From Clostridia bacterium (lineage in GTDB: Bacteria > Bacillota > Clostridia > Peptostreptococcales > Anaerovoracaceae): a stretch of DNA of 64,000 nucleotides. Shown here in pieces: positions 5,161 to 59,184 of the stretch. The position numbers and the translations under genes were made by a program. The stretch lies in NCBI GenBank assembly GCA_902363595.1, contig CABJAP010000012.1, positions 62,001-126,000 of the forward strand, given 5' to 3'. The notes beneath the pieces were generated by a model. The model made no database searches. It was given only the letters and a program-made list of their open reading frames with translations, and had not been told where the DNA came from. Position 1 is the first letter of the stretch. Each line of letters begins with the position of its first letter.

Positions 5161-6438
5161 ATGAAGGACATGAGCTTAAACCTGGAATACATCCATATCA
5201 AAGATGTCGTTTTCGGTGAAAAAACGTTCATCGAAAACGGGGTGTTAACGGTTAACAAGGATGAGCTTATCGATACGATAAAGACAGACAGATTGATAAA
5301 CATCGATGTTGACATTGCAAAACCAGGTGAATCAACAAGAATAATTCCTGTGAAAGATGTAATAGAGCCAAGAGTGAAGGTGGAAACCGAAAGGGCTTTC
5401 CCCGGCGTATTAGACGGCTATACATCCTGCGGGGAGGGAACAACAAAAGTATTGAGAGGCTGCTGTGTAACTACATGCGGCAAGATTATCGGTTTCCAGG
5501 AAGGAATCATCGATATGTCGGGTCCGGCAACAAAATACTGCAGATTTTCAGAACTGATCAATGTGGTTGTTGTGGCTGATCCGATCGACGGCATTACACC
5601 GGCGGAACACGAAACCGAGATCCGTATGCTGGGACTGAAAGCGTCCCTGTACTTAGCAAAGGCGGGCCTGGATGTGGAAGCAGACGAGGTAAAGACTTAC
5701 AGAAGAGATCCGGTGGACCCGGCGAAAAAACTGCCAAAGGTGGCATATGCGTTTCTAATCATGGCCCAGGGCCTGCTGCATGATAACTATGTTTACGGTC
5801 TCAACGCCATTCAGCTCAACGCACAGCTGCTGCATCCCAACGAAGTCTTTGACGGCGCCATCGTTTCCGGCAACTGCGTAACGGCAAGCGACAAAAATAC
5901 GACCTATGACATTCAGAATCACGCCATCATCGAAGAGCTGTACAAGAGGCACGGCGTTGATTTGGATTTCTGCGGCTTGATCGCATCCCCAATCAGTACC
6001 ATTTTGGCTGAAAAAGAAAGAAACGCTATGGTAACGGTAAATCTGGCTCAGACATGCCTGGCGGACAGCATCATTATCAGCCAGGAAGGCGGCGGAAATC
6101 CGGAAGCTGACCTGATGCTCATCTGCGAAAGAGCGGAAGAACGGGATATGGCCAGCGTTATCGTGCTCCACGACAATCCTGGTCCTGACGGAACTTCAGA
6201 GCCGATGGCAAACACTTCTCCAAAAGCCACGGCTGTCATTACAACCGGCAACGACAACTGCATCATCGAGCTGCCTGAAATGGAAAAGAACATCGGCTAC
6301 AGAGAACAGCTGCATCTGCTTTCCGGCTCACCCGATGACTGTGAAGTCGGCGACGGAAAGATCAAAGTCGGTATTCTGGTAATTATGGGATCAGCAAGCA
6401 ATTCCGCAAACGGATATTACTGCACAGAGCCGTACTAA
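5161..6438 (+). CDS. Glycine/sarcosine/betaine-reductase-type component B, alpha/beta proprotein (copy 1)
   Basis: A 425-residue GrdE/GrdG/GrdI-family proprotein. Members are cleaved at an internal Cys, which becomes the pyruvoyl group that forms a Schiff base with the amine substrate. Here the site is Cys239 in SGNCVTASDKNTTYD. Other family blocks are IIPVKDVIEPRVKVE, GKIIGFQEGIIDMSGP, MAQGLLHDNYVYGLN and SQEGGGNPEADLM. It lacks the VGSG block found in copy 2 (true GrdE) and has CGEGTTKVLRGC instead, as copy 3 also does, so the substrate is probably not glycine. AGGAGG precedes the ATG by 8 bases. The partner grdB1 follows after 19 bases. Confidence 0.88.
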   Translation: MKDMSLNLEYIHIKDVVFGEKTFIENGVLTVNKDELIDTIKTDRLINIDVDIAKPGESTRIIPVKDVIEPRVKVETERAFPGVLDGYTSCGEGTTKVLRGCCVTTCGKIIGFQEGIIDMSGPATKYCRFSELINVVVVADPIDGITPAEHETEIRMLGLKASLYLAKAGLDVEADEVKTYRRDPVDPAKKLPKVAYAFLIMAQGLLHDNYVYGLNAIQLNAQLLHPNEVFDGAIVSGNCVTASDKNTTYDIQNHAIIEELYKRHGVDLDFCGLIASPISTILAEKERNAMVTVNLAQTCLADSIIISQEGGGNPEADLMLICERAEERDMASVIVLHDNPGPDGTSEPMANTSPKATAVITTGNDNCIIELPEMEKNIGYREQLHLLSGSPDDCEVGDGKIKVGILVIMGSASNSANGYYCTEPY

Positions 6439-6457
6439 AGAAGGAGGAAAATTGAAA

Positions 6458-7762
6458 ATGAGAGCGTTACATTACATCAATCAGTTTTTCGGCCAGCTTG
6501 GCGGTGAAGATTCCGCTTACGCCCCTCTCGAATTAAGAGAAGGTACAGTTGGACCGGGAAACGTTCTGCAGAACATGTTAAAGGATATTGAAATCGTTAA
6601 CACAGTCGTCTGCGGAGACAACTATTTTGTAGAAAATACGGAAAAGGTTGAAGAAGAGCTGGCTAAAATTTTAGACGAAAAAGAAATCGACATCGTGTTC
6701 GCAGGTCCGGGATTCAACGCCGGCCGTTACGGTATGGCATGCGGCGGCGTATGCAAGATCGCTTTTGAAAAAGAGATCATCGCTATTTCCGCCCTCAACG
6801 AAGAAAATCCAGGTTTAGAACTCTACAAAAAATACGGATATATCTTCCCAACCGGAACAAAAGCCAAGGATATGAAGGACGCCTTGACAAAGATTTCGGC
6901 CTTTGCCAACAAAATTGCCGAAGGAAAAGAAATCGGCCTTCCCGATGAAGAGGGATATTTCCCAAGAGGCATCAGAAGACCATGCTGGAGAGATAAGAGC
7001 GGAGCCGAAAGAGCCGTCGATATGGCAGTAGCCAAAGCTTTGGGACAGCCCTACACTACAGAGGTTGAAATGCCCAAATTCGATCACATCGTTCCCAGCG
7101 CCCCTGTTGCGGATCTTTCCAAGGCCAAAGTTGCCATCCTCACATCGGGCGGCATGGTCCCTGTCGGCAACCCGGATCACCTGGAAGCTTTATCCGCATC
7201 CAAATGGTGCGCGTACTCCATTGAAGATTTCGGCGGCAGCGCAGAAAACTTTAAGGGCGAAGTCGCTCACGGCGGATATGACCCGGTATACGGCAATGAC
7301 TGGGGAACTAGAATTCTGCCCTATGACGCTTTTAAAGAGTTGGAAAAAAGAGGCGTTATCGGTGAATTATACGACAAAATGCTGGTTACAGTGGGCAACT
7401 GCATGGACGTAGCTAAAGCCACAAGATATGGCAAAGAAATGGCTCAGCATCTGAAGGATGCCGGTGTTCAGGCAGCGCTGCTCACCTCCACCTGAGGAAC
7501 TGACACACGTTGCGGTGCAACGTTAGTTAAGCAGATCGACGATGCGGGTATCCCGATCGTACATCTTTGCACGATTTGTCCAATTTCATATTCAGTAGGA
7601 GCAAACCGGATCTATGCTGCTGTAGCGATTCCGCATCCTGCTGGTTATCCAAACCTTTCCAAAGAAGAAGAACTGGAAGCCAGAGTTCAGCTTTGCGAAA
7701 AGGCGATCAAAACGACAGCTGTCCCAGTGACCGAACAAACGATTTTCGGAAAAGACATGTAG
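6458..7762 (+). CDS. Component B gamma subunit, selenoprotein (GrdB-type copy 1, U-x-x-D-x-x-C variant)
   Basis: A 434-residue GrdB/GrdF/GrdH-family selenoprotein read through TGA 7493-7495, giving Sec346. The N-terminus RALHYINQFFGQLGGED and the block GPGFNAGRYGMACGGVCK are standard. The selenocysteine site reads TST-U-GTDTRCGATL: Asp stands where the other three paralogues here have Cys (U-x-x-C-x-x-C). After Sec the frame continues with SVGANRI, IPHPAGYPNLS and TEQTIFGKDM to TAG 7762. A stem-loop suited to act as a bacterial SECIS follows the TGA. I start at ATG 6458, which has good spacing to GGAGG; TTG 6452 is an alternative. The enzyme should cleave the C-N bond of an N-bearing acetate unit, but the substrate is unknown. 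Confidence 0.88.
7507..7523 (+). promoter_or_regulatory. Putative bacterial SECIS hairpin of grdB1
   Basis: The stem ACGTTGC/GCAACGT with a GGT loop begins 11 bases after the in-frame TGA. The same stem with a GGN loop recurs at the same place in all four grdB-type genes. Apical G residues are typical of SelB-binding elements. Confidence 0.6.
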
Positions 7763-7886: not shown

Positions 7887-7983
7887 GGGGGTAGATGGGT
7901 GCTGGTGTGCCCTCTGGTCTTCAAAACCAGTTTGAGGAGTTAGCAGCTTCTTGGGTGGGTTCGATTCCCACATACTCCCGCCA
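7887..7983 (+). tRNA. selC: tRNA-Sec (anticodon TCA), copy 1
   Basis: A 97-base gene with encoded CCA. The anticodon arm is CTGGT-CTTCAAA-ACCAG, giving TCA that reads UGA. It has a long variable arm (GAGGAG pairing with CTTCTT), a T arm GTGGG-TTCGATT-CCCAC, an extended acceptor stem starting GGGGGTA and discriminator G. It supplies selenocysteine for the Sec-containing reductases. A second copy at 27729 differs in the anticodon stem and variable arm by changes that keep pairing. Confidence 0.93.
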
Positions 7984-8091
7984 AAACTTATGCGAAGCGA
8001 TTGCTTGCTGATGAGGTTGATATGCGATTGAGAAATATGTGCTCCGTTATAGGGCACATATTGTATTTTATGGGCGAATCAGGTGAAAAGA

Positions 8092-9237
8092 ATGGAGAAG
8101 ATTGACAGGAAAGAATTTATTTCTCTCATCGATGAGATGGATAAAAAATTCGTTGTTTATAATCAAGAAAAGAACGCGATCGCCGTTGCAGCAAGCTTGG
8201 ATGAGCTGAAGGACTTCAGCAAAAACCAACCTGTGGAAATTTTCAAATATCATCAAGCGTACAAAGGCAAATCGGAAAATGAGTTGAACTATAAAGACTC
8301 GGACTTTATTTTCAAAAGCAGCACCATGCGCAAAACCATTGAGCTGATCGAAGCCGTGGCGCCTACGGATACGACGGTTCTTGTCCAGGGGGAAACCGGG
8401 ACCGGAAAAGGCTTTGTCGCCAAGCTGCTTCATATGAACAGCGACCGAAAGGACAAGGCTTTTGTCGATATCAACTGCGCGGCCATTCCTGAAAAACTGC
8501 TGGAATCCGAATTGTTCGGATACGAAGCCGGTTCTTTTACAGGAGCCCTGGATACGGGAAAAGCTGGTTTGTTTGAAACGGCCGGCGAGGGAACGGTCTT
8601 TTTGGATGAAATCAATTCTCTGCCCATGTCCCTGCAGGTGAAATTTTTAAGGGTGGTGCAGGAGAAGGAAGTGATGCGAATCGGCGGAACGGATTACCTG
8701 CCGGTGAAGGCCAGGATCATCGTAGCCACCAATACGGATCTGCTGCAGGCAGTGGAAGCTGGAACCTTCAGGGAAGATTTGTATTGCCGGCTGAATATCG
8801 TACCGATCACGGTTGCTCCTCTGCGAAGCCGCAAAGAGGATATCCGGGCGCTGGGGGAGTATTTTCTGGAACGATGCAACCAGCGCTATAAACAGAACAA
8901 ATACCTGAGCGATGAGGCATGGAAGGAGCTGGAAAAATATAAATGGCCCGGAAATGTCCGCGAGCTGGAGAACATGATTGAACGTTTATCGATTGTTAAC
9001 CAGAAGGAACAGATTGAAAAAGGAGATTTAACCGATCTTTTTTCCAATTTGCAGATTGAGGAGCAGTTTCAATCCTCTCTGAAAATGACCTTAAAAGAAG
9101 AAATGAACGCATATGAAAAGCGGATCATTGAGGCAAGAATGGGTACATGCAAAACGACTGCGGAGCTGGCCAAGACACTGGGCATCGATAAATCTACGCT
9201 AACGAGAAAACTGAAAAGGTTAGGTATCAGGCGATGA
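8092..9237 (+). CDS. Sigma-54-dependent activator without PAS domain, coupled to a serine-dehydratase-like gene
   Basis: A 381-residue enhancer-binding protein. The short N-terminal region of about 75 residues is not a recognisable PAS domain. The AAA+ core has Walker A GETGTGKG at about 100-107 and Walker B GTVFLDE, and a Fis-type helix-turn-helix (TLGIDKSTLTRKLKRLGI) ends the protein. The sigma-54 contact loop reads GSFTGA rather than GAFTGA. I start at ATG 8092, five bases after AGGTGA; GTG 8083 is possible. Its TGA overlaps the ATG of the next gene (ATGA), so the two are translationally coupled and probably respond to the same metabolite. Confidence 0.88.
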   Translation: MEKIDRKEFISLIDEMDKKFVVYNQEKNAIAVAASLDELKDFSKNQPVEIFKYHQAYKGKSENELNYKDSDFIFKSSTMRKTIELIEAVAPTDTTVLVQGETGTGKGFVAKLLHMNSDRKDKAFVDINCAAIPEKLLESELFGYEAGSFTGALDTGKAGLFETAGEGTVFLDEINSLPMSLQVKFLRVVQEKEVMRIGGTDYLPVKARIIVATNTDLLQAVEAGTFREDLYCRLNIVPITVAPLRSRKEDIRALGEYFLERCNQRYKQNKYLSDEAWKELEKYKWPGNVRELENMIERLSIVNQKEQIEKGDLTDLFSNLQIEEQFQSSLKMTLKEEMNAYEKRIIEARMGTCKTTAELAKTLGIDKSTLTRKLKRLGIRR

Positions 9238-10991: not shown

Positions 10992-11023
10992 GGTGCATTC
11001 TTGCAACTATTGTAAAACTGCAA
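10992..11023 (+). promoter_or_regulatory. Upstream activator element A, copy 2 (ykvI operon)
   Basis: GGTGCA-TTCT-TGCA is followed by ATTGTAAAACTGCAA, closely matching the element at 4942. It starts 153 bp before the sigma-54 core, ten bases (one helical turn) less than copies 1 and 3. Confidence 0.7.
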
Positions 11024-11219: not shown

Positions 11220-12365
11220 ATGCTAAAAATCGGAAAAAGCGAAGTTCGCATCAGCATGGTAATTAAGCTTGCCGGTGCATTCTGTGCATTCCTCATCGGA
11301 GCGGGGTTTGCCACAGGACAAGAAATTATGCAGTATTTTACAAATTATGGACTGGCAAAAGGTATCGGAGTTATGGTGGTAAACTGTTTACTCGGAGCCT
11401 GGACAGCGGCAGCAATCATGAACCTTGGCAATGAATCAAAGGATGAACAAGGTTTGAACTCTTATAAGAACTTATGCGGAAAATATGTGGGAGCATTTTT
11501 ATCCTGGTTTATCCCAATTTTCATGTTCCTCACCCTGGTAATTATGATCGCCGGATTCGGCTCAACACTTAATCAGCTTTTTGGAACCCCCAACTGGGTG
11601 GGATGCCTGGTCTTCGCCGTTGTTGTAACAGCAGTGGTATTGCTGGGACTGGCAAGAGTTATTGACACCATCGGTTTCATCGGGCCGGCCATCATCATCG
11701 TCACCATGATCATGGCAATCGGCGTTTTAGCTACAAAAGGCATTGATCTTGCAAATTGGGAAAATTACATAAATACCCACGACGTCCTGCTCGCTTCCAG
11801 CAGCTGGTTCATGTCAGGGGTACTGTATGCATTGTGGAACATTGTAATGTGCCTGCCCTTCATGTCAGCCATGGGCTCCAAGGCGCAGAACAAGACAGAA
11901 GTCATCACAGGAACCGTTTTAGGAAATGTCTTATTCACAGTGGGCACTTTATTCTTAGTACTGGCCGAAGGTTCCCAGATCGATATTGTAGGAGAAATGT
12001 CCATACCAGCCTTAACCATGGCACAGGAGCTTTCACCTATATTCGGCGTCGTCTACGCAATTATTCTCGTTCTTGCCATCTTTACCACGGCCGTTCCTCT
12101 CATGTGGTCCGTATCCTCCCGTCTGGCAAAGGAAAAGACCGTAAAATTTGCTGTTATCTGCCTGATCATCGCAGTACTGGGCTTTTTCGGAGGACAGCTG
12201 CCATTTGAACGTTTGATTAACTATATCTACCCATTGATCGGATACGTTGGATTTATTGAATTCGCCTTTATCATTTGGAGAGATATTAAATTGATTCGGG
12301 GAATGAAATCGGGAGAACCCCTTCCGGCCCACGATGAGGAAGAGAAGAAAACGGCGGAAAAATAG
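11220..12365 (+). CDS. YkvI family membrane transporter (copy 1)
   Basis: A 381-residue integral membrane protein with about ten hydrophobic segments and a charged C-terminal tail (HDEEEKKTAEK). The N-terminal block GAFCAFLIGAGFATGQEIMQYF is the hallmark of the YkvI family, distant relatives of LeuT/APC-type amino acid symporters. AAAGGAAAAGG precedes the ATG. It is first in a sigma-54 operon with the opine dehydrogenase-like gene 15 bases downstream, so it probably imports the substrate of that enzyme. Two paralogues sit at 15974 and 51971. The substrate is not known. Confidence 0.85.
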   Translation: MLKIGKSEVRISMVIKLAGAFCAFLIGAGFATGQEIMQYFTNYGLAKGIGVMVVNCLLGAWTAAAIMNLGNESKDEQGLNSYKNLCGKYVGAFLSWFIPIFMFLTLVIMIAGFGSTLNQLFGTPNWVGCLVFAVVVTAVVLLGLARVIDTIGFIGPAIIIVTMIMAIGVLATKGIDLANWENYINTHDVLLASSSWFMSGVLYALWNIVMCLPFMSAMGSKAQNKTEVITGTVLGNVLFTVGTLFLVLAEGSQIDIVGEMSIPALTMAQELSPIFGVVYAIILVLAIFTTAVPLMWSVSSRLAKEKTVKFAVICLIIAVLGFFGGQLPFERLINYIYPLIGYVGFIEFAFIIWRDIKLIRGMKSGEPLPAHDEEEKKTAEK

Positions 12366-12380: not shown

Positions 12381-13481
12381 ATGAACAAAGAAGTTGTAGC
12401 GGTATTAGGCGGTGGAAACGGAGCTCACGCTCTGGCCGCGGATCTGACAAACAGAGGCTACCTGGTCAATCTTTATGAAATGCCCAGGTTCAAAAAAAAC
12501 ATGACAAAGGTGTTTGAAACAAAGACGGTTTCATCCATTGGTGTCATCGAGGGAATCTTTGAAATGAATATGGTGACCGATGATATCGAAGAAGCCATTA
12601 AAGACGTCAAGTACATCGTAATCCTGACACCAGCCTTTGCCCATGCCGATTATGCCAAGTTATTAAAAGGAAAGGTTACTTCTGATCAGGTAATCGTCTC
12701 CATTCCGGGAGCATTTGCTTCACTTAAGATTAAAAAAATCATTGGCAGCGACCCATGCCCTGTGCTGGTAGACGCCAACAACCTGATGTACGATGCCAGG
12801 CTGGTCGAACCGGGCAAAGTAAATATTCTGGAACTGGATAAAATCGAACTGGGCTTTCTGCCGACTACAGCTGAAGCTGAATTAATGCCTGAACTTAACG
12901 ACATGTTCGACATTTGCGGCACCTTCCACGATGTGATGGAATGCGGTCTGGCTTTGATAAATCCCGCGCTGCACAGCGGCCCCTGCATTCTCAACGCAGG
13001 CCCTATCGAATATAAGAACAACGACTTTTATTTGTATGAGCACGGGTTCACTCCTTCTGCGACTAAGATCGATATGCGGCTGGACCAGGAGAGAAAAGCT
13101 ATCGCCAAAGCTTTGGGATATGACATCAATCCATTCCACTGTTTCCCCAATATCAGACATATTGAAGAGCGGGGAGAAGAATATGAATGGCAGGATTTGT
13201 ACAGAGCCGCCCATGGAGACATCGGACTTACGCCGATCGGGGGCCCCAACGACATTTTCAGCAGATATCTGACTGAAGATGCTCCCTGCGGCCTTGTCCC
13301 ATGGTCCTGTATTGGAAAGGCGGTGGGAGTCCCCACGCCGACGATCGATTCCATTGTCAATCTTTATTCTGTTTTCCACGAAATCGATTGGTGGGAAAAG
13401 GGAGTGACCTTGGAAGACTTGGGGCTGACCGACTTGACAAAGGAACAAATGAAGACCTACTGCGAGACTGGCACAAAATAA
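12381..13481 (+). CDS. NAD/NADP octopine/nopaline dehydrogenase family protein
   Basis: A 366-residue protein with an N-terminal Rossmann fold (VAVLGGGNGAHALAADLTNR, residues about 6-25) and a C-terminal opine dehydrogenase domain, including GPIEYKNNDFYLYEHGFTPS and HCFPNIRHIEERG. Family members interconvert an N-(carboxyalkyl) amino acid with an amino acid plus an alpha-keto acid using NAD(P)H. In a Stickland organism with a dedicated transporter the oxidative, opine-degrading direction is plausible, releasing an amino acid. That direction is inference. AGGAGG precedes the ATG, and a strong terminator follows. Confidence 0.85.
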   Translation: MNKEVVAVLGGGNGAHALAADLTNRGYLVNLYEMPRFKKNMTKVFETKTVSSIGVIEGIFEMNMVTDDIEEAIKDVKYIVILTPAFAHADYAKLLKGKVTSDQVIVSIPGAFASLKIKKIIGSDPCPVLVDANNLMYDARLVEPGKVNILELDKIELGFLPTTAEAELMPELNDMFDICGTFHDVMECGLALINPALHSGPCILNAGPIEYKNNDFYLYEHGFTPSATKIDMRLDQERKAIAKALGYDINPFHCFPNIRHIEERGEEYEWQDLYRAAHGDIGLTPIGGPNDIFSRYLTEDAPCGLVPWSCIGKAVGVPTPTIDSIVNLYSVFHEIDWWEKGVTLEDLGLTDLTKEQMKTYCETGTK

Positions 13482-18365: not shown

Positions 18366-18593
18366 ATGAATACCGATTATCATGGAATCTGGGGAAATGA
18401 GTCGCTGGAGGCCGTTCGGGATAAGGCGGGAATGCAGGCGATCAAACGGGCGCTGGAGCTTTATGGCGGGAACAAATCCAAGGCCGCGCAGGCGTTTGAA
18501 GTAACCAAAAGCAATTTGTATCACAAGATGAAAAAGAACCATATCGAACAATTGTATTATATTTTGTCACCGTCAAAATATAATACAGCATGA
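18366..18593 (+). pseudogene. Orphan Fis-type helix-turn-helix, probable C-terminal relic of a sigma-54 activator
   Basis: 75 residues. The segment AGMQAIKRALELYGGNKSKAAQAFEVTKSNLYHKMKK is a typical C-terminal Fis helix-turn-helix of enhancer-binding proteins, but no AAA+ domain is present upstream. A stop codon lies immediately before the ATG, and a putative intron relic precedes it. It could be the remnant of the regulator of the glycine reductase operon, or a small functional DNA-binding protein. Its last codons overlap a long perfect palindrome that may be an activator site. Confidence 0.6.
18553..18587 (+). promoter_or_regulatory. 35-bp perfect palindrome, likely activator site of grdX-grdE2-grdB2
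   Basis: The arms TGTATTATATTTTG and CAAAATATAATACA (14 bp each) surround seven bases. It lies 143 bp before the sigma-54 core at 18696. A third half-copy, TGTATCATATTTTGACA, is at 18629-18645. Confidence 0.65.
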
Positions 18594-18695: not shown

Positions 18696-18710
18696 TGGCA
18701 CGATACTTGC
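18696..18710 (+). promoter_or_regulatory. Sigma-54 promoter of grdX-grdE2-grdB2
   Basis: TGGCACGATACTTGC is a full match to the TGGCACG-N4-TTGC consensus, followed by T. Confidence 0.9.
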
Positions 18711-18876
18711 TCTATATATTAGCGTTTAAACAGTAGCCGTATTTCGATATCGAAAAGATCAGGTATTAGGATTTTGCTGGCTGGGCGCGGGATTGATCTG
18801 CCTGACCATAAAGACCAGGTTTTTCAAAGAGCTTCCGCCAGAGATGTCATTGGATGAGTAAAAAAGGGGGGTAGCC

Positions 18877-21848: not shown

Positions 21849-21870
21849 CACAGGAGTATTATTTGCGAAC

Positions 21871-31176: not shown

Positions 31177-31177
31177 T

Positions 31178-42853: not shown

Positions 42854-42862
42854 GAGAATCAC

Positions 42863-44601: not shown

Positions 44602-44616
44602 AAAGGAGCAATACAT

Positions 44617-45837: not shown

Positions 45838-47039
45838 GACCTTTTGACGGAATAACGGTGCTGGATTTTACACAGGCGTACAGCGGACCCTACTGCGCGT
45901 TGAATTTAGCCGATAACGGAGCGCGGGTCATTAAAGTGGAGCGGGCGGTGGACGGAGAACAATCCAGGTACTGGACCCCTTATACGGAAGACGGAGAGAG
46001 CGGGTATTTTGCCCTTTACAATCGGAATAAGGAGTGTCTGGCCGTGGATTTGGGAGAGCCGGAGGGCAAGGAAATCATCAAAAAATTGTTTGCCCAGGTA
46101 GACGTGGTCCTGGAAAACTTCAAGTACGGCACCATGGACAAATTGGGGATCGGATATGAAGTGGCAAAGGAAATCAACCCGGAGATCATATTCGCGTCCA
46201 TCACCGGTTTTGGGCAGACGGGGCCTTTGCGCAAGAATACCGCATATGACAATGTGATCGAGTGCATGTGCGGATTTATGGAAATGACCGGATATCCCGA
46301 TGGAGAGCCGATGCGTTCCGGAACTTCGGTGGGAGATAGCTATACCGGCCTGACCATGCTGCTGGGAATCGCGCTGGCTTGTTACGATAAAAAGCGAACC
46401 GGCAAGGGCAGAAGAATCGACGTGGCCATGTTCGATACCATGTTTGCCACCATAGAGGATGCGGTTTTGGCCTACAGCCTGACAGGAGAGGAAATCAGCC
46501 GGTCGGGCAATGCCAAGCCGCGGGAGATCGTGCCTTACGATGTTTACAAATGCGAGGACGGCTCTGTGGCGGTGGGCATCACGGAGGAATCCATGTGGCC
46601 GGATTTTTGCGAAGCAATGGGAATGGCGGAATTGATCGATGATGAGCGGTTCTGTACCAATGATCTGAGATGTGAACATTTTGACGCTTTTACCCAAATC
46701 ATGGTTGATTTTATGAACAATCAAAAACAGGGATGGGTACTGGATCAGCTGGCAAAATACAAGATTCCTGCGGCGCCGATTCTGGTTCCCCTGAGGACGA
46801 TGGAGCATCCCCAGACGCTGGCCAGGGAGATGGTCATTGAAATCGACGATGCCAACATCGGCAAATACAAAGCCTTTGGCCATCCGATCAAGTTCAGCAA
46901 GACGCCTTGCTTCGTAAAAAAATCGTCTCCCAAACTGGGCGAAAGCACCTATGATATTTTGACCTCCCTGGGATACAGCGAGCAAGAGATTCAAAACTAC
47001 GTGGATGAAGAAATCGTCAGCGTTCCCGAAGAGCATTAA
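45834..47039 (+). CDS. Class III (CaiB/BaiF) CoA-transferase, copy 2
   Basis: A 401-residue paralogue of the preceding gene (ITVLDFTQAYSGPYCALNLADNGARVIKVE; catalytic Asp in GTSVGDSYTGLTM). ATG 45834 is chosen because GGAGGGG lies six bases upstream and the ATGA overlap couples it to copy 1. Tandem class III transferases may form a heteromer, or each may act on a different acid. It is the last gene of the sigma-54 operon before a hairpin. Confidence 0.86.
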   Translation: MRPFDGITVLDFTQAYSGPYCALNLADNGARVIKVERAVDGEQSRYWTPYTEDGESGYFALYNRNKECLAVDLGEPEGKEIIKKLFAQVDVVLENFKYGTMDKLGIGYEVAKEINPEIIFASITGFGQTGPLRKNTAYDNVIECMCGFMEMTGYPDGEPMRSGTSVGDSYTGLTMLLGIALACYDKKRTGKGRRIDVAMFDTMFATIEDAVLAYSLTGEEISRSGNAKPREIVPYDVYKCEDGSVAVGITEESMWPDFCEAMGMAELIDDERFCTNDLRCEHFDAFTQIMVDFMNNQKQGWVLDQLAKYKIPAAPILVPLRTMEHPQTLAREMVIEIDDANIGKYKAFGHPIKFSKTPCFVKKSSPKLGESTYDILTSLGYSEQEIQNYVDEEIVSVPEEH

Positions 47040-47107: not shown

Positions 47108-47156
47108 AATATGATATAATGGTCTGACAAATAGTCTTTGCGGAAGAGGTATGAAG

Positions 47157-48560
47157 ATGAAATATATTCAGTTTCTAAAAGAAAACTATGATTGGCTGAT
47201 GGATTTTATTAATTGTATGACGGTCGGCATTTGGATTACCGATGCCGAAGGAAGGGTGATTATGGTTAATAATTCTTCAATCAGCACGGGAGGATTGGGC
47301 CGTGAAGAAATTTTGGGACGATATACGACCGAATTACTGGAGTCAGGATATATTTTATATGAATCCTCCGTATTGAAAGCGATCGAGAGCGGCCATGAAG
47401 AGAGCATCGTGCAGGAAGAGGGGGAAGGCAATCATTCGATGGCTACCAGCGTTCCGCTCTTTGACGGAGATGAGCTGGATTTGATCGTATGCGTTGAACT
47501 GGATATCACAGAGGTGATGCGCCTGAAGGGGCTGCTGGAAAATCAGAAGAATATTACCAGGAAATACCGAGATGAGCTTTTAAAGTTTTTGGGCCAGAAC
47601 AACACGGAAAACAATGGCAGCGAGGAACTGGTCACCTATAACGTTAACATGATCCGCATTAAAGACATGGCCGCGAAAACGGGAAAAACCGACGCAACTG
47701 TGATTATCACCGGGGAGTCGGGGACCGGTAAAGAAGTGATGGCCAATTTGATTCAGAAAAACAGCGCCAGGGCCGACGCGCCTTTTATCAAGGTTAACTG
47801 CGCGGCGATTCCCGAATCCTTAATCGAGTCGGAATTCTTCGGATATGAAAAGGGGACATTTACTGGCGCCAATGTGAACGGTAAGATCGGCCTCTTTGAA
47901 TTGGCCAACGGCGGGACCTTGTTTTTGGATGAAATCGGCGACTTGCCGCTGCAGATGCAGTCCAAGCTGCTGCGGGTCATTCAGGAGCGGGAAGTGCGGA
48001 AGATCGGCGGCGAAAAGGTCATTCCGGTGGATATCCGTTTTATCGCCGCTACCAATAAAAATTTGAAAAAGGAAATGGAGAGGGGCGCTTTCCGAAGCGA
48101 TTTGTATTACCGGCTGTTCGTGGTGCCGATCCATATTCCGCCGCTGAGGCAGCGGATCGAGGATATCGCTCCCATGGCCAATTATTTTATCAAGATGTTT
48201 AATGAGCAGTATAAGATGAACAAGGTGATCTGCGATGATGCCATCAAGGAATTGGAGGCCTATTATTGGCCGGGAAACGTCCGCGAGCTGAGAAATGTCA
48301 TCGAGCGAATGGCTGTCAGCGGTTCCGGCGATCAGATCACCAGATTCCAAGTGAGCATGTGTTTGAACGACAATGCCGGCGCCGGCGACAATATGGGACC
48401 TGGGGCAAGAAATCAATCTCTGGGCGCCCTGCTGAAGGAATATGAGCGGGAGATCATCATGAAAACCGTGGATGAATGCGGCAGTATCAGCGCTGCGGCC
48501 AGGGCTCTTCAGGTCAATAAATCCACCATATCAAAAAAGCTGAAAGAATATGAACGTTGA
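47157..48560 (+). CDS. Sigma-54-dependent PAS/AAA+/Fis activator of the acyl-CoA dehydrogenase cluster
   Basis: A 467-residue enhancer-binding protein. The PAS domain contains [19 protein letters not shown]; Walker A is GESGTGKE; the sigma-54 contact loop is GTFTGA instead of GAFTGA; Walker B is GTLFLDE; the helix-turn-helix is [19 protein letters not shown] start at ATG 47157, seven bases from GAGG; ATG 47151 is also possible. Its place right after the CoA-transferase operon makes it the likely reader of the GTTGCC-N4-GGCAAC dyads, but it could also serve the symporter gene that follows. Confidence 0.88.
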
Positions 48561-53091: not shown

Positions 53092-54687
53092 TTATGCTTC
53101 ATATACGATATTGCCGTCCATCATGGTCATCATCACCGGCATGGCAAACATTTGATCCCGGTCAGAAATGATTTGGAACGGATCTTTGCCCAGAACAACC
53201 ACGTCGGCCAGTTTACCCGGTTCAAGGGTACCCAGCTCATTCTCTTTACCGCATGCGTATGCGGATCCCAGGGTGTAGTTTCTGAGAGCTTCATGAAGGG
53301 ATAACTTTTCCCAGGGGTTGTAGCCGCCTTGGGGTTCCAGCTGATTGGTAAGCCGGTTCACGCAGCGGAATAAGCCTCTAAATGGGGTAAAATCCACAAC
53401 CGGATAATCAGTTCCAAATGCCATATGGGCACCGGTATCCAAAATGGATTTAAATGCCCACATATACTTCATCCGTTCCTCACCGATCAAATGGTGGAAG
53501 GGATGGGTGCTGTAGTGGGTGCGGGGGGAGTGTTCAGGCTGAACGGACGCGACCACTCCCAGTTCCTTGAACCTGGGAATATCCTCCGGAACGATCATTT
53601 CAATATGCTCGATGGCATGGCGCATATCCCGAAAACCGTTGGCTTTGCCGGCCTCTTCAAAGGCATCCAGGGCAAGATGGACCGCTCCGTCGCCGCAGCA
53701 ATGAACCCGGCATTTGACATTCATCTCGTCCAGCTCCGTGACTCTTGCGATGAACTGATCTCTGGGAACCAGCGGCTTGCTGACAAACCCCGGTTTATCC
53801 TCATAAGGCGCTGCCAGAAAACCGGTGTAGCCCATAGGAGTACCGTCCAGGAACTCCTTCACTCCGTTGAAGGTAACCAGCGGTCCGGTGAATTCCTGTT
53901 CCAGTGCCTTGATTTTTTCGTTGGATTCCATCATGGCTGCGGAAAAGTTGATGCGGACGGGCAAATCCCCCGACTGCTGAAGGATGCGGTAAGCTCCTTC
54001 TCGGATAATGCCGTGGAGAGGCAGATCGCCTACTGAAGTGATTCCCAGACTGTTGGCCATTTTTGCAAAGGACCTGGTAAAATCCGCGATCTTTTCGTCA
54101 GAAATTTGATCAAAGATGATCTTTAATAAAGGAGCAACGGCAAGCTCATGAACATATCCGGTCAGCTCACCATTTTCGTCTTTCACATATTCCCCATTGG
54201 GCGGATCGGGCGTGTTCTTATCAATATGAAGCCTTCTTAACGCCTCGCTGTTGAGCCATGCGCCGTGGCATTCCTTATTCAAAGAAAACACGGGCGTTTT
54301 TGGAAAATAGCGGTCCAGAGTTTCCTTCGTAGGAAGCTTTTGTCCCGGCCAGACGAAATGATCCCAGGCGCCGCCCAGAATCCATTGGTCCGGATCCTTG
54401 TCTTTGTTCCGTTCATATAAATAGCGCGCCGCATCTTCTTCCGCGGCTGTGCGGCGAATGGTGCCAAAGTATTCCATCATAGCAGCCATAGCCATATGAA
54501 CATGATAATCGTTGAAGGCAGGCATCAAAAATCCATCGGAATAATCCAGAATTTCATCCGCCATGGCCTCATCCCAATCCTTTGCCGGAATAAGGGCGCT
54601 GATTCGATTGCCGTCAATCAGCAAATAACCGTCAACCAACACATCCGAAAGGGACGTATAAATCTTCTTACATCGAATTGCTTTCAT
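53092..54687 (-). CDS. YtcJ-type metal-dependent amidohydrolase
   Basis: A 531-residue protein of the amidohydrolase superfamily. Metal-ligand candidates are DYHVHMAM (the HxH), CRVHCCGDGA and HAIEHIEM, plus the late FGTDYPV Asp. YtcJ-like enzymes hydrolyse amide or N-acyl bonds of small molecules; no signal peptide is visible, so it is cytoplasmic. GGAGGTGAACG precedes the ATG. It is coexpressed with YkvI copy 3 from a sigma-54 promoter. A plausible job is freeing an amine or amino acid that grdE1B1 reduces, but that is inference from shared regulation. Confidence 0.82.
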   Translation of the reverse strand: MKAIRCKKIYTSLSDVLVDGYLLIDGNRISALIPAKDWDEAMADEILDYSDGFLMPAFNDYHVHMAMAAMMEYFGTIRRTAAEEDAARYLYERNKDKDPDQWILGGAWDHFVWPGQKLPTKETLDRYFPKTPVFSLNKECHGAWLNSEALRRLHIDKNTPDPPNGEYVKDENGELTGYVHELAVAPLLKIIFDQISDEKIADFTRSFAKMANSLGITSVGDLPLHGIIREGAYRILQQSGDLPVRINFSAAMMESNEKIKALEQEFTGPLVTFNGVKEFLDGTPMGYTGFLAAPYEDKPGFVSKPLVPRDQFIARVTELDEMNVKCRVHCCGDGAVHLALDAFEEAGKANGFRDMRHAIEHIEMIVPEDIPRFKELGVVASVQPEHSPRTHYSTHPFHHLIGEERMKYMWAFKSILDTGAHMAFGTDYPVVDFTPFRGLFRCVNRLTNQLEPQGGYNPWEKLSLHEALRNYTLGSAYACGKENELGTLEPGKLADVVVLGKDPFQIISDRDQMFAMPVMMTMMDGNIVYEA

Positions 54688-54901: not shown

Positions 54902-54934
54902 GGTGCAATTGTGCAACAAATGCAAAAATGCCCC
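54902..54934 (-). promoter_or_regulatory. Upstream activator element A, copy 3 (amidohydrolase operon)
   Basis: Read on the minus strand from 54934: GGGGCA-TTTT-TGCA, then GTTGCACAATTGCACC. It starts 163 bp before the first base of the sigma-54 core, exactly as at grdE1. Confidence 0.72.
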
Positions 54935-55078: not shown

Positions 55079-56452
55079 ATGGATTTCAATAAATTTTCGG
55101 ATGAAACGAAAACGTGTATAAGTGCCGTAATCGAATGCATCGATGACGGCATCTTTATAACCGACGGAACGGGTACGGTGGTTGAGCTGAACAAAAGCGC
55201 GCTGGGATGCCAGAGCAGAGAACAGATTATTGGAAAAAATATGCGCCAGCTGATTGAAGAGGGGATTTATGAAGATTCTCTGGCCCTGCGGGTCATCAAA
55301 GAAAAAAAGCCAGTCAGTATGGTCCAGCACGAAGAAACCGACATCCTGACCACCGCCATCCCCCATCTTGAGGACGGCCAGGTAAAAATGGTCGTGTGCT
55401 GTGAACGGGAAGTTTACGAGCTGGATGCTTTGCGCCAGGAATTGAAAGAAAGCAGAGCAAAAAATTTGCAATACGAGCAGGAACTGATGTATTTGCGAAA
55501 GAATGCAACCAGGGATGTGGGCATTATTGCAGAAAGCACCCAGATGCACGATGTGATCGAGCTGGCGCTGACGGCGGCCGAGTACGATTCCAGAGTTTTG
55601 CTCCAGGGTGAAACGGGAACCGGAAAAGAAGTGATCGCCAAGTTGATCTACCGCAACGGCAAACGGATGGGCAAACCTTTCGTCGATGTGAACTGCGGGG
55701 CCATCCCGGAGAACCTGCTGGAATCGGAGCTGTTCGGATATGAAAAGGGGGCTTTTACCGGAGCGAGGGAAGAGGGAAAGAAAGGCGTGTTTGAACTGGC
55801 TGACGGCGGTGTTTTGTTCTTAGATGAAATCGGAGAAACATCCATCCCTTTTCAAACCAAACTGCTGCGCTGTATACAGGAAGGTGCCGTAACCAGAGTC
55901 GGCGGGGTCAGAGCCGTCCCGGTGGATGTGCAGATCATCGCGGCCACCAATCGGGATTTATTGAGAGAAGTCAAGGAAGGGCGGTTCCGGGAAGACCTGT
56001 ATTATCGATTAAACGTGTTTCCCATTGAAATACCGCCGCTGCGCCAGCGAAAGAGCGACATTGTTTCGCTGGTGTATCTATACGCTTCCAAATTCAATGA
56101 CAAGCATGGTACGGACAAAATGTTTTCCAGGGAAGCGCTGGAAGCGCTGCAGAATTACAGATGGCCGGGCAATGTGAGAGAGCTGGCCAATGTGGTGGAA
56201 AGGCTGATGCTCATCAGCAAAAATAAAATTATCAAGGAGGATGAGCTGCAGTTTTTATTCTTTGCAGAGAATTCCCCGGAGGAACAGGAGCTGACAGAAT
56301 CCTCGCTGGAAAAACATGTGGAACGCATCGAAAAAGAGGTGATTTCCAAATATCTGATGCGATATAAGCGGCGGGCGGAACTGGCCGATGCGCTGGGCAT
56401 ATCCATCGCCACTTTAAACAGAAAGCTGCGAAAATACGGATTAGGCGACTAG
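55079..56452 (+). CDS. Sigma-54-dependent PAS/AAA+/Fis activator of the grdE4 cluster
   Basis: A 457-residue enhancer-binding protein nearly collinear with the one at 33507: PAS (VIECIDDGIFITDGTGTVVELN), Walker A GETGTGKE, contact loop GAFTGA, Walker B GVLFLDE and a Fis helix-turn-helix (ALGISIATLNRKLRKYG). ATAAAGGAG precedes the ATG. It lies immediately upstream of grdE4/grdB4 and a permease. The two close paralogues each head a related component B module, suggesting duplication of the whole module. Confidence 0.9.
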   Translation: MDFNKFSDETKTCISAVIECIDDGIFITDGTGTVVELNKSALGCQSREQIIGKNMRQLIEEGIYEDSLALRVIKEKKPVSMVQHEETDILTTAIPHLEDGQVKMVVCCEREVYELDALRQELKESRAKNLQYEQELMYLRKNATRDVGIIAESTQMHDVIELALTAAEYDSRVLLQGETGTGKEVIAKLIYRNGKRMGKPFVDVNCGAIPENLLESELFGYEKGAFTGAREEGKKGVFELADGGVLFLDEIGETSIPFQTKLLRCIQEGAVTRVGGVRAVPVDVQIIAATNRDLLREVKEGRFREDLYYRLNVFPIEIPPLRQRKSDIVSLVYLYASKFNDKHGTDKMFSREALEALQNYRWPGNVRELANVVERLMLISKNKIIKEDELQFLFFAENSPEEQELTESSLEKHVERIEKEVISKYLMRYKRRAELADALGISIATLNRKLRKYGLGD

Positions 56453-56462
56453 AGAGATTAGT

Positions 56463-56503
56463 GCAGATTTGATTGAAATCGATCAAATCTGCATTGTTTT
56501 TTT
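56463..56503 (+). terminator. Terminator after the activator gene
   Basis: The perfect arms GCAGATTTGAT and ATCAAATCTGC enclose eight bases, followed by ATTG and TTTTTTT. Confidence 0.85.
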
Positions 56504-56592: not shown

Positions 56593-57846
56593 ATGAACAG
56601 CATGAAATTAGAGTTGGAAGTGATTGAAATCAAAGATATCCGGTTTGATCGCAAAACATCGGTGAAAGATCATGTTCTTCATATTAATAAAGAAGAATTG
56701 ATCAAGTATCTGCAGGACCCTCGCTTGCAGAACATCGACATCGACTTGGCAAGGCCGGGTGAATCGGTACGCATTATTCCGGTAAAGGATGTGATCGAAC
56801 CGAGGATCAAGGATGATGGAAAAGGGGGCAGCTTTCCCGGGTTCCTGGGGGATTACGAGGGCGCCGGCGACGGGAAAACCATCGTTTTGCGGGGATGCAG
56901 CGTGGTGACTACCGGGAAAATCGTTGGTTTTCAGGAAGGCATCATCGATATGTGGGGGCCCGTAGCCCGGCATTGTGCGTTTTCCGCGCTGAACAATGTG
57001 GTTGTCAAAGCAGACCCGCAAGACGGCATCGAACCTTCGGACCATGAAGCCGCGATCCGGGTCGCCGGACTCAAAGCAGCCCACTACCTGGCAAAGGCAG
57101 GACTTCAAGGAATTGCAGATAAACGGGAGGTCTACCAACTTCCGCCGGTTTCCAAAGAACTGCCCAAAGTGGCGATCATGTACATGACCATTGCCCAGGG
57201 GCTGCTCCATGACAATTATGTTTATGGGGTCGATGCGAAAAAACTCCATCCGACCCTGCTTCATCCCAATGAATTGCTCGACGGCGCCATTGTCAACGGC
57301 ACGTGTGTGGTGGCCGCTGACAAACAAACCACCTACCGCCACCAGAACAACGCCCTGGTAAAGGAGCTGTACGCAAGGCACGGCGTTGATTTGGATTTTG
57401 CCGGTGTGATCGTCGTTCCGGTAAGGCCGGAGTTAAAGGAAAAGGAGCGGTGCTGCAGCGGGGCTGTCAATCTGGCCAGAACCATCGGCGTTGAGGGAGT
57501 GATCATTCCCGAAGAAGGGGGCGGAAACCCGGAAGCCGATCTGATGATGACATGTAGAGCCTGTGAAAAGCATGGTATTAAAACCGTTCTTATCATTGCC
57601 CTGGAGGATCCCCTTGCCGATACAACCCCAGAGGCCGATGCGGTCATCGACGTGGGCAATGACGATGAAGTACTGACCCTGGAACCGGCAGAAAAGGTGA
57701 TCGGATATGAAGAACAGATTCAACTGCTGTCAGGGGCTCCAGAGAACTGTATCGCAGATGACGGAAGGATCCGCATCCCCTTGTACGTTATAACCGGCCT
57801 CCATGGAAGTCTGATCGGCTCCCATGTGAAAGGCGTGGCTTATTGA
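56593..57846 (+). CDS. Component B alpha/beta proprotein (GrdE-type copy 4)
   Basis: A 417-residue GrdE/GrdG/GrdI-family proprotein. The cleavage site is Cys238 in VNGTCVVAADKQTTYRHQNN. The segment GFQEGIIDMWGPVARHC differs from the MSGPGAEYT of copies 2 and 3 near a conserved motif, perhaps reflecting substrate choice. GDYEGAGDGKTIVLRGCSVVTTGK shows it is a further variant. ATG 56593 is chosen behind GGAGGA; the frame is open to 56575. grdB4 follows after 18 bases. Substrate unassigned; similarity to copy 3 suggests a related amine. Confidence 0.88.
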   Translation: MNSMKLELEVIEIKDIRFDRKTSVKDHVLHINKEELIKYLQDPRLQNIDIDLARPGESVRIIPVKDVIEPRIKDDGKGGSFPGFLGDYEGAGDGKTIVLRGCSVVTTGKIVGFQEGIIDMWGPVARHCAFSALNNVVVKADPQDGIEPSDHEAAIRVAGLKAAHYLAKAGLQGIADKREVYQLPPVSKELPKVAIMYMTIAQGLLHDNYVYGVDAKKLHPTLLHPNELLDGAIVNGTCVVAADKQTTYRHQNNALVKELYARHGVDLDFAGVIVVPVRPELKEKERCCSGAVNLARTIGVEGVIIPEEGGGNPEADLMMTCRACEKHGIKTVLIIALEDPLADTTPEADAVIDVGNDDEVLTLEPAEKVIGYEEQIQLLSGAPENCIADDGRIRIPLYVITGLHGSLIGSHVKGVAY

Positions 57847-57864
57847 TAGAAAGGCGGTGAGAAG

Positions 57865-59184
57865 ATGAAGGTTGTACATTATATCAATCAATTTTATGGG
57901 CAAATCGGAGGCGAAGCGGAGGCTTATTATCCGTTGGAGGTAAGGACAGAACCCGTTGGCCCAGGAAAACAGCTGCAAGCCATGCTGGGAGAAGATGGCC
58001 GGATTGCAGCGACCGTGATCTGCGGAGATAATTATTTTAACGAAAACATGGAGACGGTAAGCCGCCAGATCGAGGAGATCCTGAAAACGTATGATGCTGA
58101 TCTGCTGGTAGCAGGTCCGGCTTTCAACGCGGGCCGATATGGGGTCGCCTGCGGGGCCGTCTGCAAGATCGCATACGAGATGGGTATCCCGGCAGTGAGT
58201 GGAATGTACAAGGGCAATCCGGGAGTCGAAATGTATCGGAGATACGGCTATATTCTCTCCACAGCCGACAACGCCCGGAGGATGAAAGAGGCCCTGGAAA
58301 GCATCTGCGGCCTGACAAAAAAACTGATCCGTGGAGAGCTGCCTGCCGCGCCCGATGAAGAGGGCTATTTTGAAAGGGGCTTGCGCAGAAACGTATTTAT
58401 GGAAAAGAACGCGGCCCAAAGGGCAGTTGATATGCTGATGGCCAAAATGGGGGGCAAATCGTTCATCACGGAACGGGAGATGCCGGTGTTCGAGAAGTTT
58501 GCGCCCAGTCCGGCCATCCAGGATATGAAGCAGGCTACCATTGCAGTTATGACCAGCGGCGGCCTGACGCCCAAAGGCAATCCCGACCGGCTGGAAGCCT
58601 GCAACTGTACCAAGTATAAGATGTATTCTCTGGAAGAGGATTACGGAGGAAAAGGGATCACAAAAGGCCAGGTGGTACACGGCGGGTACGATCCTGTATA
58701 CGGCAATGCTGACGGAAACCGGATCCTGCCGGTGGATGCGCTGGTTAAGCTTGAACAAGAAGGCGTGTTCGGCAAGCTCTACGATTACACCTATGTTACA
58801 GTGGGAAACGGCACAGAGGTTGACCGGGCGGCCGACTTCGGCGACAAAATCGCTGAAGAGCTGAAAGCGGGCGGCGTTGACGGTGTGCTGCTGACTTCCA
58901 CCTGAGGAACCTGTACTCGTTGCGGAGCAACGATCGCAAAACATATTGACGCGGCAGGAATTCCCATCGTGCATATTTGCACCGTCACCCCTATTTCCAT
59001 TACTGTGGGCGCCAACCGGGTCGTTCCAGGCGTTTCCATCCCTCATCCCGCAGGCAATCCCAACGCCAGCCGGGAAGAAGAATTCAAGATCCGAGAACGG
59101 ATTGTCAGGACGGCCCTTAAAGCGCTTGAGACCGATATAACGGAACAAACGGTATTTCCAGTGGAATCCAATCAGGAGGTGTGA
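57865..59184 (+). CDS. Component B gamma subunit, selenoprotein (GrdB-type copy 4)
   Basis: A 439-residue selenoprotein read through TGA 58903-58905 (Sec347) in TST-U-GTCTRCGATIAKHIDAAG. KVVHYINQFYGQIGGEAEAY, GPAFNAGRYGVACGAVCK and DRLEACNCTKYKMYS link it to copy 3. The frame continues to TGA 59184, with a C-terminal tail (FPVESNQEV) slightly longer than in the paralogues. GGCGGTGAG lies before the ATG. The permease starts two bases after the stop, indicating tight coupling. Confidence 0.9.
58917..58933 (+). promoter_or_regulatory. Putative SECIS hairpin of grdB-type copy 4
   Basis: The stem TCGTTGC/GCAACGA with loop GGA starts 11 bases after the TGA. Confidence 0.6.

Follow-up and report, generated by a model that had tools for sequence, protein, structure and literature searches.

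The component B modules of the glycine reductase family, each a pair of a GrdE-type alpha subunit and a GrdB-type selenoprotein, are known to act on only a handful of substrates, namely glycine, sarcosine and betaine and, in one paper, fluoroacetate, for which the component B FarEB has been published (PMC10838667, in the text available). A preliminary description of the DNA analyzed here listed the first three substrates, and its list was incomplete. In all known cases the core that serves these modules, selenoprotein A (GrdA) and component C (GrdC and GrdD), accepts a carboxymethyl group, both by general knowledge and according to the same available text, which also assigns eight grdB genes to Cloacibacillus porcorum MFA1, with heads for glycine, proline, betaine, sarcosine and fluoroacetate, and presents FarE/FarB as believed to use the common A and C components. 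Here we describe a 64,000-nucleotide stretch (hereafter the window) of an Anaerovoracaceae genome (assembly GCA_902363595.1, contig CABJAP010000012.1, positions 62,001 to 126,000) in which four component B pairs stand around one shared core. Model cut-off, motif and tree agree in making pair 2 the component B of a glycine reductase. For pairs 1, 3 and 4 we predict reductase activity on three additional carboxymethyl amines, none of them of the glycine, sarcosine or betaine type, a reading that we consider probable though some way from secure.

The island and its core

The four grdE/grdB pairs of the preliminary description are present within 54 kb, each at the place it had been given (Table 1), and the single grdA, grdC and grdD that it listed were also found. 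The grdA gene was identified by PF04723; grdC and grdD, like trxA, trxB and grdX, are named for the families to which we take them to belong and from a gene order that is conserved in relatives. GrdA, SelA, SelB, a SelD-like protein and GrdE were scored with Pfam models and GrdB with NCBIfam models. The region can be read as a selenoprotein island of four component B heads around one GrdA/GrdC/GrdD and thioredoxin core, which is likely common to all four.

Class assignment of the four pairs

All four GrdB proteins pass the general model TIGR01918 (cut-off 65.45) with 498, 715, 569 and 550 bits for pairs 1 to 4, GrdB1 being scored on NCBIfam without its last two residues, and GrdE1, GrdE3 and GrdE4 pass PF09338 (cut-off 22.2). 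The glycine model TIGR01917 (cut-off 602.2) is passed by GrdB2 (717.9 bits) and failed by GrdB1, GrdB3 and GrdB4 (459.5, 548.0 and 521.0). The same three proteins fail the sarcosine GrdB model (478, 570 and 548 bits, cut-off 800), and all four fail the betaine model NF040795 (452 to 566 bits, with 452, 490 and 475 for GrdB1, GrdB3 and GrdB4; cut-off 775). Judged by NF040793, NF040794, the GrdF motif and clade, none of the four pairs is a sarcosine component B; nor is any a betaine component B, which lacks the processing cysteine, this residue being present in all four GrdE proteins and the clade being separate. D-proline reductase models were failed as well (TIGR04480, 44 to 63 against 700; TIGR04483, 76 to 102 against 300).

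Reference proteins passed their own models: both glycine-type GrdB (808 and 714 bits), 3/3 sarcosine-type GrdB (845 to 852), both GrdG (875 and 853) and 3/3 betaine-type GrdB (811 to 828). The three sarcosine controls also passed TIGR01917 (662 to 696), but did not match the glycine motif; this model alone therefore cannot split the glycine from the sarcosine type, yet even so it excludes pairs 1, 3 and 4. Motifs for glycine and sarcosine GrdB have been published (PMC9751293, in the part available). The glycine motif matches 16 of 55 GrdB rows, pair 2 among them, and misses L037 from the same part of the tree; the sarcosine motif is present in all six GrdB rows that make up the sarcosine clade. 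Neither motif is found in pairs 1, 3 and 4. The earlier statement that glycine reductase residues are confined to pair 2 is borne out by the agreement of the published GrdB motif, TIGR01917 and the GrdE2 processing site.

Pairs 1, 3 and 4 might instead act on non-amine carboxymethyl compounds (haloacetates, glycolate, thioether types), as FarEB does on fluoroacetate. FarEB extends the family in this direction, and GrdB1 has lost a motif cysteine, much as FarB is said to have lost CxxC (PMC10838667, available text). However, the FarE model NF053623 (cut-off 675) is failed by GrdE1 to GrdE4 with 213, 164, 193 and 183 bits, the glycine, sarcosine and betaine references serving as the control set; this test covers the alpha subunit, there being no FarB model among the NCBIfam results. 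FarE is reported in the same text without processing cysteines, the first of which GrdE1, GrdE3 and GrdE4 keep, and the far operon has an MFS antiporter, unlike the APC-type permeases that accompany pairs 3 and 4. We regard a non-amine substrate as quite improbable.

Phylogeny

A quick GrdE tree of 117 rows was followed by a careful one of 94 rows, kept from 108 hand-chosen rows and supported by bootstrap and the Shimodaira-Hasegawa approximate likelihood-ratio test (SH-aLRT). Pieces of fewer than 380 (quick) or 330 (careful) residues, second copies of duplicated loci, and non-priority rows more than 80% (quick) or 88% (careful) identical to a kept row were excluded, the GrdE of genomes G109 and G183 (L172 and L171) being dropped by the identity rule. 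The GrdB tree holds 55 of 169 paired GrdB, those with a GrdE partner in the GrdE tree, without proteins shorter than about 400 residues. Reference labels came from annotation for P. acidaminophilum and from the motif, to which the model score was added for six rows.

In both GrdE trees pair 2 groups with glycine-type rows, while pairs 1, 3 and 4 occupy three separate subclades of one clade (49 rows, support 100/95 in the careful tree) that leaves all glycine, sarcosine and betaine reference rows outside. The GrdB tree is concordant, with the same three pairs in a 15-row clade (support 100/99). Approximately unbiased (AU) tests reject forcing GrdE1, GrdE3 and GrdE4, each with its orthologue from Anaerovorax odorimutans SL.3.17, into the known group (p of 2.7e-5, 2.0e-6 and 1.4e-53, respectively). 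The preliminary description had named a position of these pairs inside the sarcosine and betaine clades as the outcome that would speak against it; no such position was obtained in the GrdE tree, the GrdB tree or the AU tests. Pairs 1, 3 and 4 are, on this evidence, three heads outside the tested characterized classes. Its suggestion that at least one pair, perhaps more, acts on an undescribed amine can be kept to this extent, that an undescribed type is the most economical reading for three pairs in three subclades.

These results bear most directly on the possibility that pairs 1, 3 and 4 represent divergent reductases of sarcosine, dimethylglycine or betaine and that the island serves known or near-known methylated glycines only. 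Methylated glycines are common compounds, and their abundance favors such an assignment; the pairs belong to the same family and stand with the same shared core, and their best-scoring substrate-named models are those of sarcosine GrdG and GrdF. Nevertheless, both trees and the AU tests separate them from the sarcosine and betaine clades, they match neither published motif, and the references pass the sarcosine and betaine models that they fail. Betaine-type GrdE has SGSFMP without cysteine where GrdE1, GrdE3 and GrdE4 have one, and no BCCT transporter was seen among the scored neighbors, whereas one P. acidaminophilum GrdG/GrdF copy has one. As the reference set holds no characterized dimethylglycine enzyme, this evidence covers sarcosine and betaine. 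We think this possibility unlikely and prefer to see pairs 1, 3 and 4 as reductases for further carboxymethyl amines.

Active-site residues and fold models

The processing sites of GrdE1 to GrdE4 read SGNCVTASDK, SGNCVSACDK, NGCCVVAGDK and NGTCVVAADK. The processing cysteine is invariant in all 52 aligned GrdE (the four of the window and 48 picked from 156 homologues), and absent from betaine-type rows. The second cysteine of CVSACDK is replaced by S, G and A in pairs 1, 3 and 4, respectively, and retained in other members of the clade. Retention in all three of the cysteine that would form the pyruvoyl group argues for amines with a carboxymethyl arm and is compatible with Schiff-base binding of the amine; N-substituted glycines would be the likeliest class.

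Known GrdB types carry the motifs TAHGGYDP and [ST]T[VT]GN (glycine), [ST]IHGGYDR and [ST]TTGT (sarcosine) or TIHAG[FY]DP and [ST]TVGT (betaine). The window pairs carry VAHGGYDP and VTVGNCM (pair 1), VVHGGYDP and VTVGNGM (pair 3) and VVHGGYDP and VTVGNGT (pair 4). The motif of GrdB proper is UxxCxxC according to the available part of PMC13188914, and it is found in GrdB2, GrdB3 and GrdB4 (UGTCTRCG in the last two). GrdB1 has UGTDTRCG, that is UxxD, so that we class pair 1 among the relatives covered by TIGR01918 and not as GrdB proper. UxxD is also present in four other pair-1 type GrdB rows and in L115_B15096, which sits in another subclade, so the change may have arisen twice. Two very divergent pairs elsewhere (L177 and L178) have serine for cysteine after selenocysteine (UGTS) and no processing cysteine; they are FarE-like in these losses, and score 171 and 161 on the FarE model, far below the cut-off.

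Neither GrdE3 nor the part of GrdB4 before its UGA had a sequence match in the PDB. The AlphaFold2 model of GrdE3 (pLDDT 89.8, pTM 0.91) had no fold match at E up to 0.001, and that of GrdB1 (pLDDT 88.4, pTM 0.60) had eight, with TM-scores up to 0.25 and no useful relative.

Relatives of the island

The closest relative among the matches listed is contig NZ_JANFXK010000006.1 of SL.3.17 (locus L004, genome G002), where 39 of the 48 window genes searched were matched over 54.6 kb, in the same order and with 68 to 97% protein identity. Unmatched among the 48 were two left-end genes, the serine dehydratase-like and racemase-like genes, grdX-grdE2-grdB2, the APC3 gene before pair 3 and the GPH transporter gene. 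In SL.3.17 the aldolase gene and the shared operon lie on a contiguous stretch, and the grdX-grdE2-grdB2 genes are missing from the space that separates them. A search of this genome yielded three component B alpha genes, orthologous to those of pairs 1, 3 and 4, and one grdA; grdC and grdD are retained. Parts of the same island were found in the rumen metagenome-assembled genome RUG14038 (G001), which has two grdA and four component B alpha genes, all four in the 49-row clade, and in G387, which has one grdA, one component B alpha gene (73% identical to GrdE3) and trxBA, grdCD and selABD on the same contig. Because relatives such as G101, G149, G080 and G164 have a high-scoring GrdE 3 to 4 kb before grdA, like the window, the window probably keeps the older state, SL.3.17 having lost the glycine pair and kept A, C and D. 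Since SL.3.17 and G387 keep the core with only window-type heads, such heads probably feed GrdA/GrdC by themselves, and the idea of a shared A/C set, put forward in the preliminary description, is strengthened by the retention of A, C and D in SL.3.17.

The gene grdA is present in 39 of 197 family genomes, and in 32 of these 39 it is accompanied by a GrdE that scores 649 bits or more on PF09338, where glycine- and sarcosine-type rows fall. The other seven (G002, G026, G109, G118, G126, G183 and G131) have neither a GrdE in this range nor one of betaine type: G002 has the three window types, G131 a very divergent GrdE, and the remaining five one GrdE each from a second group. This second, unassigned GrdE/GrdB group (L155 to L174, Anaerovoracaceae), with the site NCVSPGSK or NCVSAGSK where read, lies outside the window clade for the members kept in the careful tree, and its member is the only GrdE found in those five grdA genomes.

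Pair-1 type GrdE (at least 60% identity) occurs in at least 2 of 393 genomes of the order. A search with GrdE3 in 391 genomes of the class (E up to 1e-130) found one genome, SL.3.17, and a search with GrdE4 in 398 genomes of the phylum (E up to 1e-125) found nine. The eight of these beyond SL.3.17, at 52-54%, have glycine-type genes as neighbors and were for this reason left out.

Regulation

Sigma-54 activators accompany pairs 1, 3 and 4 (Table 1). The activator that the preliminary description gave to pair 1 is in fact two, one divergent and one downstream, and the permease and activator that it gave to each of pairs 3 and 4 are present in the window, although in SL.3.17 the permease does not stand beside pair 3. 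A Fis-type helix-turn-helix fragment before grdX-grdE2 is likely the remnant of a sigma-54 activator, of which the glycine pair seems to have lost the greater part.

In the whole window 14 sites of the -24/-12 type score at least 10, against a mean of 4.65 and at most 10 such sites in 20 plain shuffles. As shuffled sequence also yields such sites, and the sites of pair 1 and of the YkvI operon score only 9, single sites are weak evidence. Those listed stand before operons and, that of pair 2 excepted, recur in SL.3.17. The upstream element common to pair 1 and the YkvI/opine dehydrogenase operon, noted earlier, is real, and further sites lie before the A/C operon and the amidohydrolase gene. 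The pattern gives four sites in the window against 0.04 expected, only two of them independent because the pattern was built from the pair-1 and YkvI sites. In SL.3.17 a half-site with one mismatch precedes the A/C operon and none precedes the amidohydrolase gene; at three mismatches the element was not found in L117, L118 or L113. From the elements to the promoter-like sites there are about 130 to 280 bases, and clostridial sigma-54 upstream sites lie mostly 100-250 from the promoter (PMC6615313, available part). Palindromes of their own, also present in SL.3.17, are found with pairs 3 and 4, though these could be terminators as well. The heads look separately inducible, and the signal of pair 1 may reach the core also.

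Adjacent activators and own promoter-like sites would also suit redundant glycine reducers that differ only in regulation. We give this explanation very little credence: GrdE1, GrdE3 and GrdE4 are only 45 to 47% identical to GrdE2, their pairs fail the glycine motif and model, and SL.3.17 has all three pairs and no glycine pair. Distinct substrates for pairs 1, 3 and 4 remain our preferred explanation.

Proposed mechanism and candidate substrates

In the scheme that we propose, cleavage of each GrdE at its conserved cysteine would create the pyruvoyl group to which the amine binds. GrdB would then use its selenocysteine to attack the carbon of the carboxymethyl arm, setting the amine free. GrdA would take over the carboxymethyl group on its own selenocysteine, and from there GrdC/GrdD would convert it to free acetyl-phosphate, yielding ATP. 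Expression of pairs 1, 3 and 4 would in each case depend on the pair's own sigma-54 activator responding to its substrate, and the activator of pair 1 would turn on the shared core too.

The neighboring genes offer a lead to the substrates. The opine dehydrogenase operon shares the pair-1 element, and in both G001 and G387 opine dehydrogenase is encoded no more than 13 kb from a pair-3 type head; two CaiB-type CoA-transferase genes lie less than 6 kb from a pair-3 type head in all four genomes read (the window, SL.3.17, G001 and G387). Because of these associations we take opine-like N-carboxymethyl amino acids as suggested substrates, as a lead only, of the pair-1 and pair-3 types. The best solved relative of the window opine dehydrogenase is N-(1-D-carboxyethyl)-L-norvaline dehydrogenase (1bg6). 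In the 197 family genomes PF02317 was found at 50 places (49 over the cut-off), of which five, in four genomes, lie less than 15 kb from a GrdE. As a general partner of component B, opine dehydrogenase was rejected, two of the five places being beside a glycine-type GrdE. No paper among the matches listed in a literature search combined carboxymethyllysine with glycine reductase.

A broader proposal, toward which we are less inclined than not, makes GrdA/GrdC a general converter of carboxymethyl groups to acetyl-phosphate with a large radiation of heads. Pairs 1, 3 and 4 would then be three new selenium-dependent reductases, those of the pair-1 and pair-3 types acting on opine-like N-carboxymethyl amino acids, and SL.3.17 and G387 would have given up reduction of glycine, sarcosine and betaine and would conserve energy only via such heads.

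Several observations weigh against assigning new amines to pairs 1, 3 and 4. All three lack the second GrdE cysteine and pair 1 has also lost the UxxCxxC cysteine, either of which could mean a different or weaker activity. The metagenome rows of the trees were selected by similarity to GrdE1 and GrdE3, FarE lay outside the tree sample, and the AU groups were defined after the first tree had been seen. SL.3.17 is without more than pair 2, lacking also the APC3 gene beside pair 3 and the GPH transporter, serine dehydratase-like and racemase-like genes, and most of the genomes compared are drafts, in which absence of a gene is not proof. The pair-1 element was not found at three mismatches before the A/C operon of SL.3.17. 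Opine dehydrogenase also stands beside glycine-type GrdE (two of the five places; G134). Finally, the carboxymethyl constraint presupposes that GrdA/GrdC take nothing else.

Selenium features and other genes

An in-frame UGA in the context S-T-U-G is present in all four grdB genes and is directly followed by a SECIS_4 element; that of grdB1 is codon 348 counted from 6452. The window has two tRNA-Sec genes, SL.3.17 one in the corresponding stretch (after grdB1) and G001 one (by selA).

The region 40007-50017, with an APC permease, acyl-CoA dehydrogenase, EtfBA, a CaiB-type pair, an activator and a GPH-type transporter, looks like a separate electron-acceptor module; the nearest NCBIfam model of its acyl-CoA dehydrogenase is acryloyl-CoA reductase, below cut-off. 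An aldolase-like gene (17114-18223), near 3-hydroxy-D-aspartate aldolase BhcC (264.8 bits, cut-off 690), follows a PucR regulator and a YkvI-like transporter and is kept in SL.3.17 despite the loss of the glycine pair. In L155 (4554-10880, minus strand) GrdB and GrdE are split by an NhaC-like gene and an opine dehydrogenase gene, and the locus is preceded by an alanine dehydrogenase-like gene (331.6 bits, cut-off 391.9); genes of this kind also occur near pair-1 type heads, at a distance of 1 kb in L003 and of 11 kb in G001. Aconitase X and its swivel domain are encoded beside the CoA-transferases of the pair-3 type module of G001 (L113, 17908-19610).

Table 1. Features of the island, in window coordinates
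Feature	Position	Strand	Evidence and remarks
EBP1a, PAS and sigma-54 activator, divergent from pair 1	3469..4839	-	Pfam; 94% identical in SL.3.17
Upstream activating sequence (UAS)-like element of pair 1, GGTGCATTTTTGCA-N4-TTGTAAA	4942..4966	+	about 140-160 bp before -24/-12 site; full in SL.3.17
-24/-12 site, pair 1	5105..5120	+	score 9/11; 10/11 at same place in SL.3.17
GrdE1, component B alpha subunit	5161..6438	+	PF09338 506 bits; trees
GrdB1	6452..7762	+
SECIS_4 of grdB1	7496..7533	+	Rfam, 31.9 bits against gathering threshold 38; E 3.3e-5 over 801 bases
tRNA-Sec, first copy	7887..7983	+	ARAGORN, Rfam
EBP1b, sigma-54 activator downstream of pair 1	8083..9237	+	Pfam
Second copy of pair-1 element, before YkvI/opine dehydrogenase	10992..11016	+	full in SL.3.17
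-24/-12 site, YkvI/opine dehydrogenase operon	11145	+	score 9/11
YkvI-type transporter	11220..12365	+	name from preliminary description; no Pfam hit
Opine dehydrogenase	12381..13481	+	PF02317 135.8 bits; 1bg6 E 4e-42
Orphan Fis-type helix-turn-helix fragment before grdX-grdE2	18366..18593	+	PF02954 28.6 bits
-24/-12 site, grdX-grdE2-grdB2 unit, TGGCACGATACTTGCT	18696..18711	+	score 11/11
GrdE2, glycine type	19251..20531	+	tree only
GrdB2	20541..21848	+
SECIS_4 of grdB2	21591..21628	+	61.8 bits, at gathering threshold
Pair-1 type element before shared A/C operon	21862..21886	-	two mismatches
Two -24/-12 sites (22142, 22300), grdX-trxB-trxA-grdA-grdC-grdD operon	22142..22315	+	both conserved in SL.3.17
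grdX-like, thioredoxin reductase trxB, thioredoxin trxA	22393..24086	+	translation; names presumed from family and position
GrdA, selenoprotein A	24204..24665	+	UGA codon 44; PF04723 170.3 bits on part after UGA
GrdC	24938..26482	+	component C, acetyl-phosphate forming; orthologue in place in G001, SL.3.17, G387
GrdD	26500..27612	+	component C, acetyl-phosphate forming; orthologue in place in G001, SL.3.17, G387
tRNA-Sec, second copy	27729..27825	+	ARAGORN, Rfam; 89/97 bases as first copy, 8 differ
SelA and SelB	27827..31176	+	PF03841 491.6 bits; SelB winged-helix domains
EBP3, sigma-54 activator, pair 3 module	33399..34877	+	Pfam
APC3 permease, pair 3 module	34910..36718	+	Pfam; listed from TTG, likelier ATG at 35066; not beside pair 3 in SL.3.17
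-24/-12 site, APC3-pair 3	34989	+
GrdE3	36724..37983	+	PF09338 514.9 bits; trees
GrdB3	37998..39305	+
SECIS_4 of grdB3	39042..39079	+	45.4 bits, at gathering threshold
APC permease, acyl-CoA dehydrogenase, EtfB, EtfA, two CaiB-type CoA-transferases	40007..47039	+	Pfam
EBP5, further sigma-54 activator	47151..48560	+	Pfam
Amidohydrolase (family 3)	53092..54687	-	Pfam
-24/-12 site, amidohydrolase	54771	-
Pair-1 type element before amidohydrolase	54910..54934		two mismatches
EBP4, sigma-54 activator, pair 4 module	55079..56452	+	Pfam
Palindrome before pair 4	56462..56493	.	own UAS or terminator of EBP4; conserved in SL.3.17
-24/-12 site, pair 4	56547	+
GrdE4	56593..57846	+	PF09338 511.5 bits (scored from 56575); trees
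GrdB4	57865..59184	+
SECIS_4 of grdB4	58906..58943	+	45.2 bits, at gathering threshold
APC4 permease, pair 4 module	59181..60797	+	Pfam
DsrE-like protein, Se/S carrier-like protein, SelD (AIR synthase fold)	61401..63144	+	Pfam

Comparison with known systems

If the assignment of new amines to pairs 1, 3 and 4 is true, anaerobes gain ATP from modified amino acids that are not followed at present, and swappable heads on a shared core explain how. SL.3.17, a named strain in which no glycine head was found, and G387, with its single head, make the substrate question directly testable. A literature search over titles and the starts of abstracts found no new component B type beyond fluoroacetate; prior description of these clades is possible.

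With glycine reductase GrdE/GrdB (TIGR01917, PF09338) pairs 1, 3 and 4 share the two-gene arrangement, the UGA-coded selenocysteine, the SECIS element, the GrdE cysteine site and the presence of GrdA, GrdC and GrdD in the island. They differ from it in having CVTASDK, CVVAGDK and CVVAADK instead of CVSACDK, and V[AV]HGG and VTVGN instead of TAHGG and [ST]T[VT]GN in GrdB. The processing cysteine and an adjacent sigma-54 activator are common to them and to sarcosine GrdG/GrdF (P. acidaminophilum GrdG/GrdF), the activator of sarcosine reductase being SarR (PMC6615313, available part); in contrast, they lack IHGGYDR and the TTGTGT motif, fail the sarcosine models and form separate clades. Betaine GrdI/GrdH is a plug-in pair of the same family, but its GrdE has no processing cysteine, which the window pairs keep, and its GrdH model is failed.

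FarE/FarB of C. porcorum (PMC10838667, available text) resembles the window pairs as a non-classical head and, for pair 1, in the loss of a redox cysteine near selenocysteine, whereas the window pairs score far below the FarE cut-off, keep the processing cysteine and have no radical SAM gene among the neighbors scored. Many heads are found both in C. porcorum MFA1 and in the window, where three lie outside the tested classes and in one island with the selenocysteine machinery. The family is already known, and so is the arrangement of many heads on one core, as in the eight grdB genes of MFA1. New here, judged by the searches made, are three heads outside the characterized classes in one island with its own selenocysteine machinery, together with related genomes in which heads of this kind seem to be the only ones serving the core.

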